Of a DNA stretch of 50,074 bases, positions 15,427 to 26,922 are shown in pieces. How positions within the stretch are numbered: the stretch's first letter is position 1; every line of letters begins with the position of its first letter. Below the pieces are notes generated by a model. It saw nothing but the letters and a program-made list of their open reading frames with translations. It was not told the DNA's origin and searched no databases. Where the stretch lies: assembly GCA_016782835.1 (NCBI GenBank), contig JADHXS010000003.1, positions 1 through 50,074 of the forward strand, given 5' to 3'. Made by a program: the position numbers and the translations under genes. This DNA is from Phycisphaerae bacterium. Lineage in GTDB: Bacteria; Planctomycetota; Phycisphaerae; Sedimentisphaerales; Anaerohalosphaeraceae.

Positions 15427-18357
15427 ATGAGAAAAGTTCTGATTGGTCTGATAGCCTTTGGGATCGTCCTTTTGGGGTTCTGGGGATACGTTGCTTGGAT
15501 GGATACGCCTCCGATTCAGGTGCCGCATGCAACTGATGCGCAGGACATGGATATACCGCCCACTGATACCGATCCGCAGCCGATGGGTGACACGACGCTG
15601 GAAGTTGTGGGTCGAACTCGGTATTTTAAATATGACCCAGTCACGAAAGAAGCAATGGCTGAGTATGGTTTCCAATTGCTGTTAAATCCGGGAGAGGGGT
15701 CATCTCGCTGGCGTGTGGAAAAGCCCTATCTGGTCTTTTATCAACCGGATTACCAGTGCCGCATTGATTCTGAAAGGGGGACGTTCCAGGTTGAAACGGC
15801 CGGGTCTCAAAGTGTTCCGAAAGATGCGCAGTTGGATGAAAATGTGGTGATTCATATCACGTCTCGTCCGGGAAGCCGGATCAATGAAACAACCATCTAT
15901 ATGGATGATTTGACATTCAGCAGTGAGCGTTCGGAATTCGCAACAGACGGCCCGGTAACCGTTCAATCTATACAACTCCAACTGGAGGGGCATGGTTTAG
16001 TTTTGATTTTTAATACGGGTATCGGAAAGGTGGAATATTTACAAATTAAGGATTTGGACTTTCTTCGGCTCAAAGGTTTTGCGTCTTCAAATTCCTCGTT
16101 AGAGTCGAAACCAACCGAGGTCTCTGGTGAAGACAAAATGCCATCAGAACTTCAGCCTGCAGACCAGACGACCTCTCCGGAAATTGCAGCGTCTGAGCAG
16201 GATGTTTCGCAGCAGAAGGAGCCTGATTCATCGGATAACCTTTACCGGTGCGATATCCGAGACAATGTGATGATTCAATACGGTAATGAGTTGGTCGTGT
16301 CAGGCGCCGATCAGGTGGATATCCTGAATATCCGTCCCTCAAGTATGAATGATGCGAATACGGATGACAGCGATAATAAAAATAAAGGTCGTTCCGGCGA
16401 CATTGCGGATGCGGCCATACCATCGTCTCCGCAACAGCCGGGCTCTGTTTCGAATTCTCCCGAACCGACGCGGTCGCAGGCGGTTGCTCGGACCGATGAG
16501 TCGCAGGATGTTATCGTTAATTGTGATGGCGGGATGATTTTTCAGCCGATGCAGCGTGCGGAGTCGGTCAGTAACAAGGCGTCGGATTCGGCTCTGGCAT
16601 TTGAAATGTCCGGAACTCCTTTGAAGATAGGCCGTGTTCGCACCGGTTTATTAGATAAGGGTTCTGAAACACTGGCCCATTGCGGGGCTTTATATTATAA
16701 ACCTACTGAAGATATTCTGCGTTTGTTTACGAATAAACGCCAGCCTCAGATTTTGTTAAATACGCAGGAATCCAACAGTCGGATCGAAACAAACGGAAAT
16801 GTTTTTTGGGACCGCAAAGCTCAGCGAGCCAATATTGCCGGACCGGGAAAGGTTTATATCGGCAATGTCAAAAATCCAACAGCCCAACCCAGTGAAATTT
16901 CGTTTGATGGTGTGATGGACCTGTTGTTTGCACAGATGCCGGATGATGTTTCGTTGGCGACGACGATCCGGACAATCAATTTTACCGGCGGCATGGACGC
17001 AATCCTGCGGCAAAACGGTACGCTGAAAACACTAGCGGATTCAGCCGTGCTTGAGTTTGGACGCGAGAATGAACTCTCTGAAGCACGTTTAGACGGGGAT
17101 GTTCATTTTGAATCATTTGAGGCGGGAAAATCCTCATCGCAAGCTGCTGCTGAATCGGCAATTTTTCATTTTGACAACAATCAGATTTCAACGGCGGATC
17201 TAAAGGGAGCCGTTCATTTTGTGTCAGCTTCGGGCCAGATGGATTCTTCAAACGCACGGATTGAATTTGACCCGGATTCAAACGGGACGATGCATCCAAA
17301 AATGATTCGAACAAATGGTGATTCGGTTTTGCAGAGCCCTTCTTCCGGAACAGAACAGCCTTCAGCAAGGTTTGAGGCGAAAAAAATTGATTATGACATG
17401 CAAACGGGAACCGGGCTGGCGCATGGACCTATTCGTTTTACGTTTTATCAGCCGGCCCAGCCGGATGCGGCCACGGTTGAATTATGGGTCCCTGTGACGA
17501 TTACGGCCGATGAAAGCGCTCAATTTCGCGCGAATACTGACCGGACGATTAAACAGGTTGTGTTCAATAAAAACGTGATTGCGTTACGTATTTTGGAAAC
17601 ATCTCTCTATACGCAGCGAGATGAGTTTCATGGGGACAAGTTAATTGTTGATGTTGATAAAAACGAGGCAGGTTCGGCGGGTATCAATCGTATTACATTT
17701 ACGCAAGGGCGGGTATTTGGTCAGTCTAAAAAACTGCGAGGCGAGGAGATTCTGTTTAATGTGCGACTGACCTGCAAAGAGATGGTTTATGACCAAACTA
17801 CCAGCGTCGTTCTTGCTAAAGGTCCGGGCCAAATTCAATTGGACAACAGCAACGCCGAACCTTCCAATTCCGGCAATGTTGGTATCAATTTCCGACGTCC
17901 GTGTTATGCACTTATCGAAGGATTTGATACAATTCAATGGGATCTCGATAATCAGCAAATTGCAGCCAATGGAGACGAAAAGACAATGCAGTTTGCCTAT
18001 GTTCCATTAATTAATGGGGAAGTGGAAAAATACATTTTTGTGAATTCGCAAACGTTAGATGCAAGTTATCAGACGGATGCATTCGGAACACCGGCTATCA
18101 AACGTGTTTTTACCGATAAAGCGATTACTTATGTTGAAACGGATCGGGATAAAAAGAAAATATTGTTGACACTGGTTGGCCAGACACTGGAATATAATGC
18201 GATATCCGATGTGGGCTGGTTGACGATTACCGGTTCTGAAGCCAATCCCTGTTTCATAAATGGGAATCGTACCCCGGCCATTCGTTATAATGTTAATACC
18301 GGGCAATTTGATGCGTCGCTGTCACGGACGCCGGGTGTCTTGAGTCCTTTGAAATAA
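15427..18357 (+). CDS. Very large LptC/LptA (OstA)-like envelope protein
   Basis: Single N-terminal TM, then LptC-like TIYMDDLTFSSERSEFATDGPVTVQSIQLQLEGHGL; later OstA-like repeats (RIETNGNVFWDRKAQRANIAGPGKVYI, LKGAVHFVSASGQMDSSNARIEFD); follows kdsD-kdsC as lptC does in proteobacteria. Confidence 0.65.
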   Translation: MRKVLIGLIAFGIVLLGFWGYVAWMDTPPIQVPHATDAQDMDIPPTDTDPQPMGDTTLEVVGRTRYFKYDPVTKEAMAEYGFQLLLNPGEGSSRWRVEKPYLVFYQPDYQCRIDSERGTFQVETAGSQSVPKDAQLDENVVIHITSRPGSRINETTIYMDDLTFSSERSEFATDGPVTVQSIQLQLEGHGLVLIFNTGIGKVEYLQIKDLDFLRLKGFASSNSSLESKPTEVSGEDKMPSELQPADQTTSPEIAASEQDVSQQKEPDSSDNLYRCDIRDNVMIQYGNELVVSGADQVDILNIRPSSMNDANTDDSDNKNKGRSGDIADAAIPSSPQQPGSVSNSPEPTRSQAVARTDESQDVIVNCDGGMIFQPMQRAESVSNKASDSALAFEMSGTPLKIGRVRTGLLDKGSETLAHCGALYYKPTEDILRLFTNKRQPQILLNTQESNSRIETNGNVFWDRKAQRANIAGPGKVYIGNVKNPTAQPSEISFDGVMDLLFAQMPDDVSLATTIRTINFTGGMDAILRQNGTLKTLADSAVLEFGRENELSEARLDGDVHFESFEAGKSSSQAAAESAIFHFDNNQISTADLKGAVHFVSASGQMDSSNARIEFDPDSNGTMHPKMIRTNGDSVLQSPSSGTEQPSARFEAKKIDYDMQTGTGLAHGPIRFTFYQPAQPDAATVELWVPVTITADESAQFRANTDRTIKQVVFNKNVIALRILETSLYTQRDEFHGDKLIVDVDKNEAGSAGINRITFTQGRVFGQSKKLRGEEILFNVRLTCKEMVYDQTTSVVLAKGPGQIQLDNSNAEPSNSGNVGINFRRPCYALIEGFDTIQWDLDNQQIAANGDEKTMQFAYVPLINGEVEKYIFVNSQTLDASYQTDAFGTPAIKRVFTDKAITYVETDRDKKKILLTLVGQTLEYNAISDVGWLTITGSEANPCFINGNRTPAIRYNVNTGQFDASLSRTPGVLSPLK

Positions 18358-20412: not shown

Positions 20413-20760
20413 GGGGGCGACTGGCTTCGACCGGACAGGTAGATGGTCAGGTGGCATGCCCAGGATGACGGTTGGCCTGGTAAAAAATCCGTTAAATAAT
20501 TTAACTGGCACTAACCAGTATAGTTTGGCTGCTTAAGAGCGGCCCGTCCTGTGAGATCTTCTCCTGCGGGTTTCATAAGGGCGCCGAAAGCGGGATAGTC
20601 GGTCTGTGTGTTCGCGGCTGATCGGCGAAACTTAGCGAACTAGCGAAGGGTGCAGCCTGTCGTTTGGCGGTACGTGGGGCGAATCTTAAATGAACGACTA
20701 TGCATGTAGAGGCCTGGCTTGAAATGTCACGGGACGGGGGTTCGAATCCCCCCGCCTCCA
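20413..20760 (+). ncRNA. ssrA: tmRNA (one-piece); inferred tag GTNQYSLAA
   Basis: GGGGGCGACTGGCTTCGACC 5' domain; acceptor GGGGGCG/CGCCTCC+A; TTCGAATCC T-arm; GTTGGCCTGGTAAAAAA as in E. coli tmRNA; tag frame GGC ACT AAC CAG TAT AGT TTG GCT GCT TAA at 20507-20536. Confidence 0.95.
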
Positions 20761-20892: not shown

Positions 20893-21204
20893 ATGTGGCA
20901 CGTTTATATTCTTGAGTGCTCAGACGACAGTTTTTATGTCGGTCGCGCTGACAATCTACAGTCCAGACTCTTGCGTCATAACGAGGGCCGCGGCGCTAAA
21001 CACACCGTACGCCGGAGACCGGTAAAGCTCGTTTGGCAGGAAGCGCACGAGACAAAAGAATCTGCCGTAAAATGTGAAAAACAAATCAAAGGCTGGACAA
21101 AAGCAAAAAAGAAAGCATTGGTGGAAGGAAATATTGAAGTTTTATGCACTTTAGCCAAATGCAAAACTGCTTCCGGAAGGGCATTCGCTAAAAAACAATT
21201 ATAG
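20893..21204 (+). CDS. GIY-YIG nuclease superfamily protein
   Basis: WHVYILECSDDSFYVGRADNLQSRLLRHNEGRGAKHTVRRRPVKLVWQE, UvrC-like N-terminal nuclease module. Confidence 0.9.
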   Translation: MWHVYILECSDDSFYVGRADNLQSRLLRHNEGRGAKHTVRRRPVKLVWQEAHETKESAVKCEKQIKGWTKAKKKALVEGNIEVLCTLAKCKTASGRAFAKKQL

Positions 21205-21233: not shown

Positions 21234-24200
21234 TTATCTGAGTCGGGTGATTTTTTCAAGCAGACGATGGAGCATCTTTTTTTCAGCTTCGTCAGCCCCG
21301 GAAAGAGAAAGGTGTTTGTCGATAGCCGTTAAAATATCGTTTTGAAGAATAGGATACAGGCGAAGCAGGACATTCTCCACGGCTTTCCTAACGGATGAAA
21401 TCGGACAACTCAGCGCATCCAGCAGGCAGTTAACAGCCTCAGGAACGGTTAATCCCTCGCGTAAAATCATATTGGCCAACTCTGCTTCGGGAGCATCCGC
21501 CATACTGACAATCAGACGCATGGCAGCGATGTGATCCGGAAACGCAATGCCGGCCATCATTGAATACGTCTGGATATACTCATGGAGCAATCGGAGCCAG
21601 CGATGGTCGGTGTTAAAGGCATTGTACGATAAATCACGATATCGCAGTTTTTTCGGACGTCCCTTTTTGTCAAAATACTTTAAACGCCTGTTATCATAAT
21701 AGATACTGACGGCATCGAGCAGGGCGTCCAATAGTGATTGGCCGGTAAAGCCGCTAAACTTGATGCCGTTGGAGGGAAATTCCTTGTCGCCGAAATCACG
21801 ATCCGAGACGGTTCGCTGCAAACCATCCTGATGATGCGCAACGACGGGGGTTCCGCCTGCATGGGCTTCCTGCTGGCTGATGCCGCAGGGTTCACCCACT
21901 TCGCCGCCGGACGGCATTATAAAGAACTGACTGCCGACATAGAGATTGCGATAGAGAGACGGTGACAGAGAACCTTCCGGGTAATACGCAAAACGTCCCC
22001 GGAACTGGGGCAGAGAGGCGATTCTGCGGAAATGCATATCAAATCGTCTCCCGTCAAAACTGTCTTCAACGCGGCCGGCAATCACATATTGAATTCGTTG
22101 GTCGGTAGACAGGAAGTACTCAAGAACCGTTGGCCCCATCATTTTCCACGGCTCATATGTCACCCACCGGCGGCCGCCCTCATCTTCATAGACTTTCCAG
22201 TCTACCAGCAGTTCGAACCCTTTTTGTTTGCAGATGCGATGGAGCATGGAAAAGATAACATGTTTAGTTTTTTTATCGTCGAAAGCCAGTTGGGTGTTTG
22301 GGTCGGACTGTAATCCCCGTTTGGCGAGCTTTTTCGCGTGGGTATATTTAGAAAACAGGCGTTTGCGGGCCGCAGGGTCATAGGTTTCAAGGATACTTTT
22401 CTTTGACCTGAACCAAAAACGCTGACGTGCGGCCATATTAAAGCCGTTACGCCGGCTGAAAAAACGTTCTTCTGCATGCAGTTGCTGGTATAAGACCCCG
22501 TGCCTAAACACACCGGGTTCGTCGAGCATCCGGTGCCGCATGGCTTTACTGACAGTGCCGATGTAATCTGATGTTTTGAGCATGAGGTATGTCAGATCAA
22601 TTTCATATCCACTGTAGCTGTCGGGATTGATACAGATGTCGGCGTTGGCAACGGCATCCATTCCAAGAATCATGCAATAATAATACCGTTTGAACATATT
22701 TGCTTCATCCATGACAATGCTGTAGGATGGATGCGGGTTATGCATCATGCTGCCGACGCGGGTATTGAAAAAATGCGGATCGGTGGAATATTCAGTTCGG
22801 CGTTTGAGATAGGCCGAGACAAGCCAGGTTGGCCATTCATTGGTCTGGATAATCGAGGGGTAATAATTGTAGGCTCGCAGCGCTTCCAGTGCTCCCTGTG
22901 AAAGAATTCGAGCCCGGCGAATTTTGTCTTCACCGGTAAGTCCGCCATATGGCGTATCAAGATACTTGCCGTTTTCAAGATAGAGCACTTCTACACGGGC
23001 CGATTTTCCATGTTTGAAACGAAGTAGGTTGCTCCGCAGAATATTAATGACATCCGGGATGGTGTTTCTTCGAATCGATTGCGTCCTGTCATCAAACTCC
23101 GGAAACTGGACCGTAAAACAGTGTCCATCGTATCGCGGCGCAAAGTTTTTAATGATTTTTTCACGGTGCGATTCGTAAAGGGGTGTCACAACAACAACAT
23201 GGAATCCGAGTTCGCTTAAGACGTCGGCGATGTCCGTGGTGTAAATACCCACACCACCGGCGGCCCCGCTGTAAAGGGACTCCGGCGAAACCAGTGCAAT
23301 GGTGCCGAGGTTCATGCCATGCAGAATATCGACCGCCGACTGGCACACGCTGTTTTCAAAGTGTTTTTTTTCATTGACCGCGATGCGCATTAGGAAATTG
23401 GTAATCCGGTGACGTCGAATCAAATGGTCTTCGCTGATTTCGGCCAATAACATTGAAAGGCAGCTAAGACCCGATTTGTGTTTTTTATCGATCCATTTTG
23501 CCAGGCATTCAAATAATTCGGCAAACGCCTCAAAATCTTCTTTGGTATTATCAATTATTTTAAAAAATACCTGGGCGACATAACTATAGTGTACGCGATC
23601 CTGCTTTCCATAAAGCGGATATCGCCGAAAGGAATCCAGAAGCATTTGCTCATGGTTAGAGGAATTGCCTTTATCGATGAATTCAAAAACATGTGATGAA
23701 ACCGGTGCCAAAACGCCGCCGAATCCGAGATGGATCAATTCATTTCCCGACCAAAATTCTTTCTTGGCACGGCGTGTTCGGCCTTCAGCATTGTTATAGC
23801 GCTCGATGACTTCATAAATCCGATTTGGTTGTATGTCATTCATCGGCAATTCAGTATTGCTGCCGCCGATCAAAAAATTAAATTTTCTTGCTACGGCCTG
23901 CTGGCCTTCGATATAAGAATTGGGGAAATTGAAGATACATAAATGCAATCGCTCTTTATAGATTCTCAGAAACGCGGCAATCCGAGTATTCTGAGTGGGT
24001 ATTGGTACAATCATTCCCCGTGTAAAAGCCGGGTTTTCGTCAACAAAACGGTAAAGTGCTCTCAAATATTTGGCAAAACCATAAAGAATCGGATAATCGG
24101 CAAGAATCTGCCATCGCGTGCGGTTTTCTTTGTCCCATGGATGCGAAAAACGATTGTTGACCCAGTGTTTCCAGCACTCCGTATAAGCATCATCAAAACG

Positions 24201-26753
24201 CTGCTGCATCGAACCGACTTCCGATCCGGGAAGCCGACTAATATGGTACATAATCGGTCCCTGGCTGCTTAACACCAGGAATGTAGCAACCGGCCAGATC
24301 ATGTTTTGATAATTGCTGGTAGGAGATTCTTCATCATGGCTGTTAAACAGGGAAAGCGTTTGGCCTCCATGTGTGTGATAAATTTTGTTTAAATAAAGCA
24401 GATTGTCATTGAGCCCCAATGCGTCATGAACACTCTGGCCGCTTCGAATGTTTTCAAGATTCTTAATCAGGGAATTGTAGGGGATATTACCAGACTTAAT
24501 CATGCGTGTTTCGTTTCCGTGCCACTGTTCAGAATAAACAACAACTGCTTTGGGAACTGCTTTCTGGATTTTATAGCACAGGTAGAGCAGGGGAATATTA
24601 GGCTCATCAGTTCCTCGCAAATCAATCGGTTCAAAGCCACCGGTGGTAACTTCTCCCATCAATCGGGTATTTCCACGAAGTGTTGCATCAATCGGAAAAA
24701 CGGCATCAAAGCCGTGCCCAACATCAATTCGCAGCCCGAAACCCATGCCTGCCAGTTCAGTGGCGATACCGGCCAATGTTTCCACATTTTCAAAATTGCG
24801 CATGTTGACCATAAAACTGTCGAGCCATTCGCTCCATTCCCCATCCCAGCCGGCCCGGCGGGTAAGTTTCCCGTCTTTGTTGACGATATAAACCGGCATG
24901 TGATAAGCGTAGGAGGTGTTGGCCCGCGAAAAATGGGAAAGAACGCACAGGAGGATTTTCATGCCCAGTGCATCGGCTTTTTCACGTAACCGCAAAAGCG
25001 CTTCAAGTCCGCCTAAATCACGTCGAACCGTTTTCCCGTCCCATACGGAAAAAACAGAGGGGTCCGGTCCCGCTTCCCCGGCCCACCCAAGTTCCAAAGC
25101 CCCCAGGGGGTAAATTCGGGTATAGCCTTCCTCGCGAATACCTTCGAGTTGTTCAGCGATTTCATCAAATGTGCCGTAAACAAACATGCCGTTCTCATCC
25201 TTCACCGGCTCAAATGATTCATCGAGTTTCAAGTTAAATGTATCGGCATAGAAACTCAATACGCGCTGTCCGCGTTCATCGGCGACATATTTTAACAGAC
25301 CCTGCGAGTTATCGTCCAGTTCTTCCGATTGCCAGGTTTTCCCTTCATTGAACGAGACCTGTACGGAGTAGTGTATCCACCCGTTCCGGACCGGAAAAGC
25401 AGCGGCAAATGTCACAAATCCGCCGGGAGCAATGATTCCACCTTGTGTCATCATCAGCGGCTTTTTGCGTCGTCCATTAACCGACCACAGAACGCGAGCC
25501 TTAAATTTATCTTTTCGAAGGTTTCGGGGTTTTTGAGTTGTGATTCTAATAGAGGCGGGTTTGGGCCGAAAAACGGAACGATTGATGCGGCTCGGCGGAA
25601 ATGTAAAAGGTCTTTCCGTGAGTACGTCTTCCAGAATGGCACTGACTTCCAGAGCAATGGAACGGCACATTCCCTTGTCGGGATTATTCCAGTAATAAAG
25701 TGCTGAATACAACAACCGAAACGATTGTCGGAGATTTTCTTTTCTGCGAATTTTTTTGACCAGTTGTCCGATGGCGGTTTTGACTTTGTGCAAATCGTCG
25801 GAAAGAAGCATCTCTTCCGATGTAAATAGGGATGAATCCTTTGCATAGGTTTGCAGTTTTGTGACCCAATCGTTAATCCAGTGCCCGTGGTCATGAAAGA
25901 TGTCTGTTCGGATATTCTGATGGGTAACCGACCGGCAGGCAGCCTGGCTCGTCATGGCATCGATCTGATGGCGATCACACAAACGAATGACTTTTACCAG
26001 GTTGTCCTGCAGTTTATAGACCAGCACGACGCAGTCATTATCCGTAAAAAGCCATTTGAAGTTTGTCAATATCTTGACGGTTTTAAAGTCTTTGATTTGA
26101 AATTCTTTTCGGATGGTATCCGCAAAGTCCGCCAATATATTCCTGATTTTGGGCCGAATTTGTGATTTCGTCCCCCGCATTGCTTCGACAATCGTTTTGG
26201 CCGCAGTTGTGTGGCCGAGAGCCGTCCAGAAACGGTCCAGGAGAAGAAGGATGTTAACCTGTTGAAGCGAATTGAGCCAGTCGGGTTCATTAAATTCAGA
26301 AGGATGAGCCTCCATCTCATGGATAGTTGATTTGAGAATTTTTTTATGAGCTTGATAAAACTGCAGACTATGCAGACGAACCTGTGTGATGTGCAGTTCA
26401 GGATTGCATAAATGATAAAAAACACGTTCAAGTGCTCCGACAAGCAGTCGATGGCGGTGAATTGAACATCGTTTTTCGACGTTCAGCAGGGCGGCATTCA
26501 GAATGATATCATGAGGCAGCAGCAAAGCTGTCCCTGTCATATCATCGGTGATTCGTATTTGAATATGTCTTTTTATCAGAGATTTGTGAAAAGCGGGAAA
26601 ATACTCCTTAATCGCCGCAAAGCTATGAATTAGGGCCGTTTCAAAAATAATTTTCTGGCTTTTGTCAAGGTTCTGAAGCAGTGTTTCAGGTGTGGTATAG
26701 TGAATCGTACCCAAGGCATCATACTGGAACACGATTATTGTGTTCATTGGCAA
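21234..26753 (-). CDS. Giant GH13-like plus GT5 (glycogen/starch synthase-like) fusion, 1839 aa
   Basis: GH13-like central domain: GLRIDVGHG (D677), VVYSEQW (E742), FNSHDEES (D807). GT5-like half from about residue 1147: ALVSPESLYSGAAGGVGIYTTDIADVLSELGFHVVVVTPLY ... GEVGEPCGISQQEAHAGGTPVVAHHQDGL. Confidence 0.8.
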   Translation of the reverse strand: MPMNTIIVFQYDALGTIHYTTPETLLQNLDKSQKIIFETALIHSFAAIKEYFPAFHKSLIKRHIQIRITDDMTGTALLLPHDIILNAALLNVEKRCSIHRHRLLVGALERVFYHLCNPELHITQVRLHSLQFYQAHKKILKSTIHEMEAHPSEFNEPDWLNSLQQVNILLLLDRFWTALGHTTAAKTIVEAMRGTKSQIRPKIRNILADFADTIRKEFQIKDFKTVKILTNFKWLFTDNDCVVLVYKLQDNLVKVIRLCDRHQIDAMTSQAACRSVTHQNIRTDIFHDHGHWINDWVTKLQTYAKDSSLFTSEEMLLSDDLHKVKTAIGQLVKKIRRKENLRQSFRLLYSALYYWNNPDKGMCRSIALEVSAILEDVLTERPFTFPPSRINRSVFRPKPASIRITTQKPRNLRKDKFKARVLWSVNGRRKKPLMMTQGGIIAPGGFVTFAAAFPVRNGWIHYSVQVSFNEGKTWQSEELDDNSQGLLKYVADERGQRVLSFYADTFNLKLDESFEPVKDENGMFVYGTFDEIAEQLEGIREEGYTRIYPLGALELGWAGEAGPDPSVFSVWDGKTVRRDLGGLEALLRLREKADALGMKILLCVLSHFSRANTSYAYHMPVYIVNKDGKLTRRAGWDGEWSEWLDSFMVNMRNFENVETLAGIATELAGMGFGLRIDVGHGFDAVFPIDATLRGNTRLMGEVTTGGFEPIDLRGTDEPNIPLLYLCYKIQKAVPKAVVVYSEQWHGNETRMIKSGNIPYNSLIKNLENIRSGQSVHDALGLNDNLLYLNKIYHTHGGQTLSLFNSHDEESPTSNYQNMIWPVATFLVLSSQGPIMYHISRLPGSEVGSMQQRFDDAYTECWKHWVNNRFSHPWDKENRTRWQILADYPILYGFAKYLRALYRFVDENPAFTRGMIVPIPTQNTRIAAFLRIYKERLHLCIFNFPNSYIEGQQAVARKFNFLIGGSNTELPMNDIQPNRIYEVIERYNNAEGRTRRAKKEFWSGNELIHLGFGGVLAPVSSHVFEFIDKGNSSNHEQMLLDSFRRYPLYGKQDRVHYSYVAQVFFKIIDNTKEDFEAFAELFECLAKWIDKKHKSGLSCLSMLLAEISEDHLIRRHRITNFLMRIAVNEKKHFENSVCQSAVDILHGMNLGTIALVSPESLYSGAAGGVGIYTTDIADVLSELGFHVVVVTPLYESHREKIIKNFAPRYDGHCFTVQFPEFDDRTQSIRRNTIPDVINILRSNLLRFKHGKSARVEVLYLENGKYLDTPYGGLTGEDKIRRARILSQGALEALRAYNYYPSIIQTNEWPTWLVSAYLKRRTEYSTDPHFFNTRVGSMMHNPHPSYSIVMDEANMFKRYYYCMILGMDAVANADICINPDSYSGYEIDLTYLMLKTSDYIGTVSKAMRHRMLDEPGVFRHGVLYQQLHAEERFFSRRNGFNMAARQRFWFRSKKSILETYDPAARKRLFSKYTHAKKLAKRGLQSDPNTQLAFDDKKTKHVIFSMLHRICKQKGFELLVDWKVYEDEGGRRWVTYEPWKMMGPTVLEYFLSTDQRIQYVIAGRVEDSFDGRRFDMHFRRIASLPQFRGRFAYYPEGSLSPSLYRNLYVGSQFFIMPSGGEVGEPCGISQQEAHAGGTPVVAHHQDGLQRTVSDRDFGDKEFPSNGIKFSGFTGQSLLDALLDAVSIYYDNRRLKYFDKKGRPKKLRYRDLSYNAFNTDHRWLRLLHEYIQTYSMMAGIAFPDHIAAMRLIVSMADAPEAELANMILREGLTVPEAVNCLLDALSCPISSVRKAVENVLLRLYPILQNDILTAIDKHLSLSGADEAEKKMLHRLLEKITRLR

Positions 26754-26922
26754 TTCCTGAGATTGAAGTCAGTCATTGGTTGCTGAAAAACCACAGCAAA
26801 GCAGAAGCTTTTATTTTTTTATTATTATATCTTAATGATTTCTCCTTTCAAGTCAAGCGATTAAAAAGAAAATACTTTTACGAACCAATGACGAAGTAAT
26901 TGTTGCAGATAGATGAAAAAGG

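Follow-up and report, generated by a model that had tools for sequence, protein, structure and literature searches.

A conserved fusion of GH13 and GT5-like domains in a single bacterial protein from one planctomycete order

The window analysed here, a stretch of 50,074 nt from contig C101 of a planctomycete genome (2.25 Mb, 137 contigs, 91% complete), encodes a GH13-GT5 mega-enzyme which is a real, conserved, and unusual fusion. The chain runs from an N-terminal domain through a beta-sandwich to a GH13 barrel and its C-domain; a helical linker then leads to a GT5-like synthase, which is followed by a helical tail (Table 1). The fold families, the domain order, the conserved catalytic residues, and the absence of membrane segments were established computationally.

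With respect to function, we give an even chance to a cytosolic bifunctional protein which combines an alpha-glucan synthase with a GH13 transglycosylase (branching or chain transfer). The GH13 domain would act as a retaining transglycosylase on the same glucan as the GT5 domain, so that one chain would both elongate and reshape a glycogen-like polymer, and the beta-sandwich and the N-terminal domain may serve in glucan binding or in positioning the two active sites. This reading is based on the two enzyme families, their kept catalytic residues, the strong conservation, and the lack of a transmembrane-like segment. It is also based on a host without another detectable GH13 protein, canonical GlgA, or GlgC, yet with glucan-degrading genes. 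That the product may be glycogen or a different alpha-glucan, as the preliminary description cautiously put it, is reasonable. We infer that both sites are active and share one substrate and that the GH13 part transfers rather than hydrolyses; what we propose for donor and linkage, and for the functions of the remaining domains, is to be taken in the same sense.

Table 1. Features of the mega-enzyme gene, with positions in the window. Residue numbers are counted from the TTG codon.
Feature	Position	Strand	Evidence
Mega-enzyme CDS, 1837 aa, ATG at 26747, stop 21234-21236	21234..26747	-	orthologues full length
Shine-Dalgarno-like AGGA before ATG	26755..26758	-	sequence
N-terminal domain, residues 3-392, alpha/beta then helical	25578..26747	-	model m89f89b8fce7a, pLDDT mostly 75-94
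Beta-sandwich before barrel, residues ~400-480	25314..25556	-	model strands, pLDDT mostly ~73-82
GH13 barrel, residues ~520-905	24039..25196	-	hhalign 94.5%, E 7.8e-8; Foldseek
GH13 nucleophile D677 in GLRIDVGH	24723..24725	-	invariant in 16 sequences; aligned with GFRLD
GH13 acid/base E742 in YSEQWHGNE	24528..24530	-	invariant in 16 sequences
GH13 transition-state stabiliser D807 in NSHDEE	24333..24335	-	invariant in 16 sequences; aligned with NHDE
GH13 C-terminal beta domain	23664..24038	-	PF16657 Malt_amylase_C in 12/14 relatives, best E 6.9e-5; model strands
Helical linker GH13-GT5	23316..23663	-	model pLDDT ~77-89
GT5-like glycosyltransferase, residues ~1147-1740	21534..23315	-	PF08323, hhalign, Foldseek
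E1621 in GEPCGISQQE, E-x7-E motif, 3-residue insertion relative to GlgA before EPCG	21891..21893	-	alignment
C-terminal helical tail, poorly conserved, variable	21237..21533	-	conservation

The fusion gene, its locus, and its distribution

As the preliminary description had it, the ORF at positions 21234-26753 is single and uninterrupted, with 1839 aa counted from TTG. The description did not give the strand, which is minus; the plus strand of this interval is full of stops. The likelier start is the ATG located 6 bases inside the TTG (1837 aa), which has an AGGA 7 bases upstream. Residue numbers nevertheless follow the TTG numbering unless M-start numbering is stated. In TTG numbering, the motifs were found at the places previously assigned to them: CVLSHF (603-608), GLRID677, YSE742QW, HD807, SGAAGGVG (from 1162), and EPCG with E1621.

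Within one planctomycete order (Phycisphaerae, probably Sedimentisphaerales), 27 of the 162 genomes searched encode relatives with 48-71% identity. The carrier genomes are split over two families (f1 with 20, f7 with 7), and 18 loci were found in the species-level genome collection. About 20 orthologues (54-71% identity) are full length and devoid of internal stops, and 473 of the 1839 positions are invariant across 16 aligned sequences. The ORF is thus real, intact, conserved, and more than a chance reading frame. Both catalytic parts are strongly conserved over the whole family. Fragmentary matches also exist, several of them at contig ends, and none contains a stop codon.

When a profile of the GT5 half was applied to 299 genomes of the class, the mega-enzyme was detected only in this order, together with one weak 63-residue match. 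Among 393 genomes of the phylum, those from outside the order gave matches to pieces of ordinary GlgA-like type. A genome-wide scan with six exact peptides, one of which (YTECWKHW) is nearly invariant in the family, returned planctomycete records only, and distant relatives may exist in other phyla. Spread by phages or plasmids was considered and rejected: no relative was found in the IMG/VR scan, and plasmids gave distant GlgA only. A report of a GH13-GT5 fusion with this architecture was not found in the open-access literature on GT5-GH13 fusions and on planctomycete or Sedimentisphaerales glycogen, which was covered incompletely; no mention of it was seen in a 2024 review on the alpha-glucan enzymes of prokaryotes (PMC11046441) or in a 2024 survey of Phycisphaerae genomes (PMC11266412).

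Two atypical relatives were encountered. One of them (G032, L041:7968-11554) consists of two overlapping frames which part at the barrel start, with 39% identity in the N-terminal part and 63% in the rest; this reflects either a sequencing error that shifts the frame or a genuine split of the gene. The other (G709:C1:6085-7878) is a 639-aa frame which matches only residues 2-599 of the mega-enzyme.

The N-terminal region of about 390 aa, for which no clear identity had been proposed, does not have a Pfam match in any of 14 relatives. It is the least conserved folded part of the protein, with invariant positions which include R65, H79, H112, H119, F284-H285-D286, and Y351-Y352-W353 (M-start numbering). 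A GH13 protein of about 1500 aa from relatives was considered as a parent of the N-terminal half and was rejected, as it is a fusion of GH13 with a debranching enzyme and has no profile similarity.

That no other glycogen gene is nearby, as stated in the preliminary description, holds for the window neighbours which were checked; glucan genes are located elsewhere in the genome. The absence of an adjoining glycogen gene, in a neighbourhood which is partly shared between relatives, argues against the bifunctional reading. A partner in an operon or neighbourhood was not identified, since some neighbours are common to subsets of relatives, with none found in all and none being informative. A tmRNA gene (20413-20760, plus strand, tag GTNQYSLAA) lies directly downstream of the mega-enzyme gene together with a small ORF (20893-21204, plus strand) which was recognised as GIY-YIG-like by eye; a functional link was seen for neither. 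Elsewhere in the window, KdsD- and KdsC-like genes (identified by eye) precede a gene for an LptC-like protein (15427-18357, plus strand) which, with 976 aa, is far above the usual LptC size.

The two catalytic halves

The middle domain had been described as GH13-like with the contexts of nucleophile, acid/base, and stabiliser, and this is borne out by profile comparison and fold search. When compared with GH13 proteins from the same order by hhalign, the barrel scored 94.5% (E 7.8e-8), with GLRID paired with GFRLD and NSHDE with NHDE of GH13. The first 50 Foldseek matches were all GH13 enzymes, obtained with a barrel model which is poor (many blocks with pLDDT <50, shallow alignment). Control profile comparisons were negative for GH13 against GT5 and for the N-terminal domain against both. 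R675 and H680 are, like the three catalytic carboxylates, invariant in 16 sequences.

The Asp of region I (DxxxNH) is nearly universal in GH13. In the mega-enzyme family, this residue is Cys in 13 of 16 sequences and Asp in three (L015, L026, L034), with the region I His kept in all 16, so that the position has changed within the family. The degenerate region I reported previously (CVLSHF) is real in the mega-enzyme but is not a family-wide trait, since three members have kept the Asp.

In its fold match, catalytic carboxylates, and C-terminal beta domain, the mega-enzyme resembles GH13 enzymes of the neopullulanase/MalZ, GlgE, and TreS types. It differs from them by the degenerate region I and by the lack of a GlgE N/S domain detectable by Pfam. 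As Pfam did not detect the N/S domain of GlgE (GH13_3) in any of 14 members (E 0.1), assignment of the mega-enzyme to GlgE is unsupported.

For the GT5-like synthase, which had been placed from about residue 1147 onward with E1621 in EPCG, the evidence is concordant. PF08323 is above the gathering score in the mega-enzyme (E 2.8e-17) and is present in 15 of 15 relatives, hhalign to GT5 scored 100% (E 1.1e-38, 474 columns), and Foldseek returned starch synthase IV (SS4) as best match, with GlgA among others (model pLDDT 69). Taken with the GH13 profile score, the clean negative controls, and the hydropathy data given below, this upholds the previously described succession of GH13 and GT5 in one soluble bacterial chain.

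The GT half shares with GlgA and starch synthases the PF08323 score, the GT-B fold match, and, in the members aligned, the positions corresponding to H161, R299, K305, and E377 of E. coli GlgA. However, it misses the cut-off of TIGR02095 (GlgA, ADP-glucose type) with 93.8 versus 328.45 bits. The lysine of KxGGL (K15), which is a mark of ADP-glucose GlgA, is gone in the members aligned (GAAGGVG, VSAGGVG, GASGGVG, GSSGGVG). TGGL of GlgA is replaced by QDGL, and three residues are inserted before EPCG (PSGGEVGEPCG). A second Glu turns EPCGISQQE into an E-x7-E motif, known to be used by retaining enzymes of GT-B fold, e.g., of families GT3 and GT4; in this respect the sequence is similar to EPFGIAPLE from a GT4-like protein of the same genome and unlike EPCGLTQLY from GlgA. 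The phylogeny which had been proposed for the GT5 half was computed against GlgA and starch synthases. In the maximum-likelihood tree, the 16 mega-enzyme GT domains all cluster in a single clade (100/100), and the branch leading to it measures 3.2 changes per site. The clade falls outside GlgA, starch synthases, and GH57-GT5 proteins, a placement which is weak (70/81) and carries a warning of long-branch joining. Judged by its sequence, the fused GT5 half is not an ordinary GlgA, because it forms a separate long-branched clade, has lost the KxGGL lysine, and has acquired the insertion and the E-x7-E motif.

Some of these residue changes argue against the bifunctional reading, namely the missing KxGGL lysine together with QDGL, and the Cys which replaces the region I Asp in most members. 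The same two losses, and a GH13 domain which is below Pfam detection in single mega-enzyme sequences, would fit a protein in which one domain only is active while the other has become a glucan-binding or regulatory module (e.g., an inactive GH13 domain holding the glucan for the synthase). We consider this possible but unlikely, given that both domains have retained their remaining catalytic residues throughout, as would be unusual if one of them were inactive. Quite improbable is a product other than a storage polymer, such as a small glucoside, a maltooligosaccharide phosphate, or a short glucan serving as osmolyte or primer: the E-x7-E motif is shared with GT4-type enzymes and the C-terminal part of GH13 has weak TreS-like matches, but the GT half is nearer to GT5 than to GT4 in sequence and fold, and the negative search for the GlgE N/S domain also speaks against such a product.

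Topology and comparison with Ags1

The preliminary description had noted that no TM bundle is evident, and this is supported by a hydropathy scan: none of the 19-residue segments of the mega-enzyme reaches a Kyte-Doolittle value of 1.6 (highest value 1.39), while two membrane proteins encoded in the window reach 2.42 and 2.83. In the N-terminus of the mega-enzyme, MNTIIVFQYDALGTIHY, neither inspection by eye nor the hydropathy scan showed a hydrophobic stretch as long as that of a signal peptide.

Fungal Ags1p consists of a signal peptide, an extracellular GH13 domain, a TM segment, an intracellular synthase domain, and a multi-TM region (PMC5753165). Compared with this published description, the mega-enzyme has the same order of GH13 and GT5 within one chain. 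It differs in being bacterial and predicted to be cytosolic, without a TM segment, an exporter, or an evident signal peptide, and in having the additional N-terminal domain of about 390 aa. Of the Ags1 likeness which had been put forward, the order of the two catalytic domains therefore stands, whereas TM segment and multi-TM region have no equivalent and a signal peptide is not evident. Membership in Ags1 thus fails on topology, with the catalytic order matching, and the mega-enzyme may still work in a way which is related to Ags1.

A true bacterial counterpart of Ags1, in which GT5 would make alpha-1,3- (or mixed) glucan, GH13 would join the chains, and export would be left to another protein or not occur, agrees with the domain order (PMC5753165) and could explain by a changed specificity why the GT5 half is so far from GlgA, but is very unlikely in view of the missing TM segment and exporter, the extra N-terminal domain, the lack of any hint of a cell-wall glucan in the window, and Ags1 itself, where overexpression points to alpha-1,4-glucan being made by the synthase domain, which caused its accumulation (PMC5753165).

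Alpha-glucan genes of the host and implications of the fusion

The host genome (91% complete) was searched for further genes of alpha-glucan metabolism. Another PF00128 (GH13) match, a GlgA over the curated cut-off, and a GlgC at E 1e-20 were not found in it. Nor was GlgC above cut-off detected in any of 60 relatives, and ADP-glucose from GlgC was thus rejected as the donor source. The NTP-transferases of the host look like two mannose-1-P guanylyltransferases, one GlmU-like protein, and one further protein.

Two alpha-glucan phosphorylases of the TIGR02094 type are encoded in the host genome, and contig C24 (L113:3-4679) carries genes for a GT4-like glycosyltransferase, a GH57 protein, and a debranching enzyme side by side. 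Because of the phosphorylases, the debranching enzyme, and the GH57 protein, alpha-glucan is probably degraded, so something must make it; we thus consider it likely that the host both makes and breaks down alpha-glucan. The GT4-like protein (456 aa) and the GH57 protein were matched in nearly all relatives examined, and the three-gene cluster is a candidate for a core alpha-glucan pathway which is independent of GlgC/GlgA/GlgB. The mega-enzyme is not the sole candidate polymerase in the genome. That the GT4-like protein could make a storage glucan alone counts against the bifunctional reading.

Another fusion, GH57 followed by a GlgA-like GT5 (~912 aa; L061:214-2949, L137:10582-13338, and others), gave a strong match in about 42 of 162 genomes of the order (hand count). 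In one of them (G056), a short alpha-glucan phosphorylase is encoded one gene away from it. Like the mega-enzyme, it has a glucan-acting GH domain N-terminal to GT5, but family and fold of this GH domain are different. In the tree, the GH57-GT5 fusions, which come from sister lineages, are placed with the order's standalone GlgA, so that the two fusions most likely arose separately. Mutual exclusion of the two was considered and rejected. An overlap was not seen in the first 60 genomes and appeared at 162 genomes, where 3 of 27 carriers (G239, G707, G708) have both, with about 7 expected by chance.

Long frames which match GH13 and encode about 1415-1527 aa were found at L117:4707-9281 and in G039, G043, G044, G047, G052, G056, and G059. 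In the L117 protein, a partial GH13/hDGE-like amylase domain is joined to a bacterial-type glycogen debranching enzyme (GDE_N, GDE_C). This protein resembles the eukaryotic bifunctional debranching enzyme.

It is conceivable, if rather doubtful, that bacteria arrived independently at the Ags1 design with the mega-enzyme, as a soluble, self-contained alpha-glucan synthase. In it, a GT5-like lineage outside GlgA, with a new specificity for donor or linkage, would act together with a GH13 transglycosylase belonging to a new subfamily on an undescribed polymer. If the bifunctional mega-enzyme is active, one soluble protein would elongate and remodel alpha-glucan in bacteria without a detectable canonical GlgA, GH13 branching enzyme, or GlgC. 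It would add to GT5 a lineage in which known motifs do not reveal the donor, and would offer a single-gene route to tailored glucans. It would also allow the long-standing question of GH13-GT5 cooperation in Ags1-type enzymes to be studied in a soluble and tractable system.
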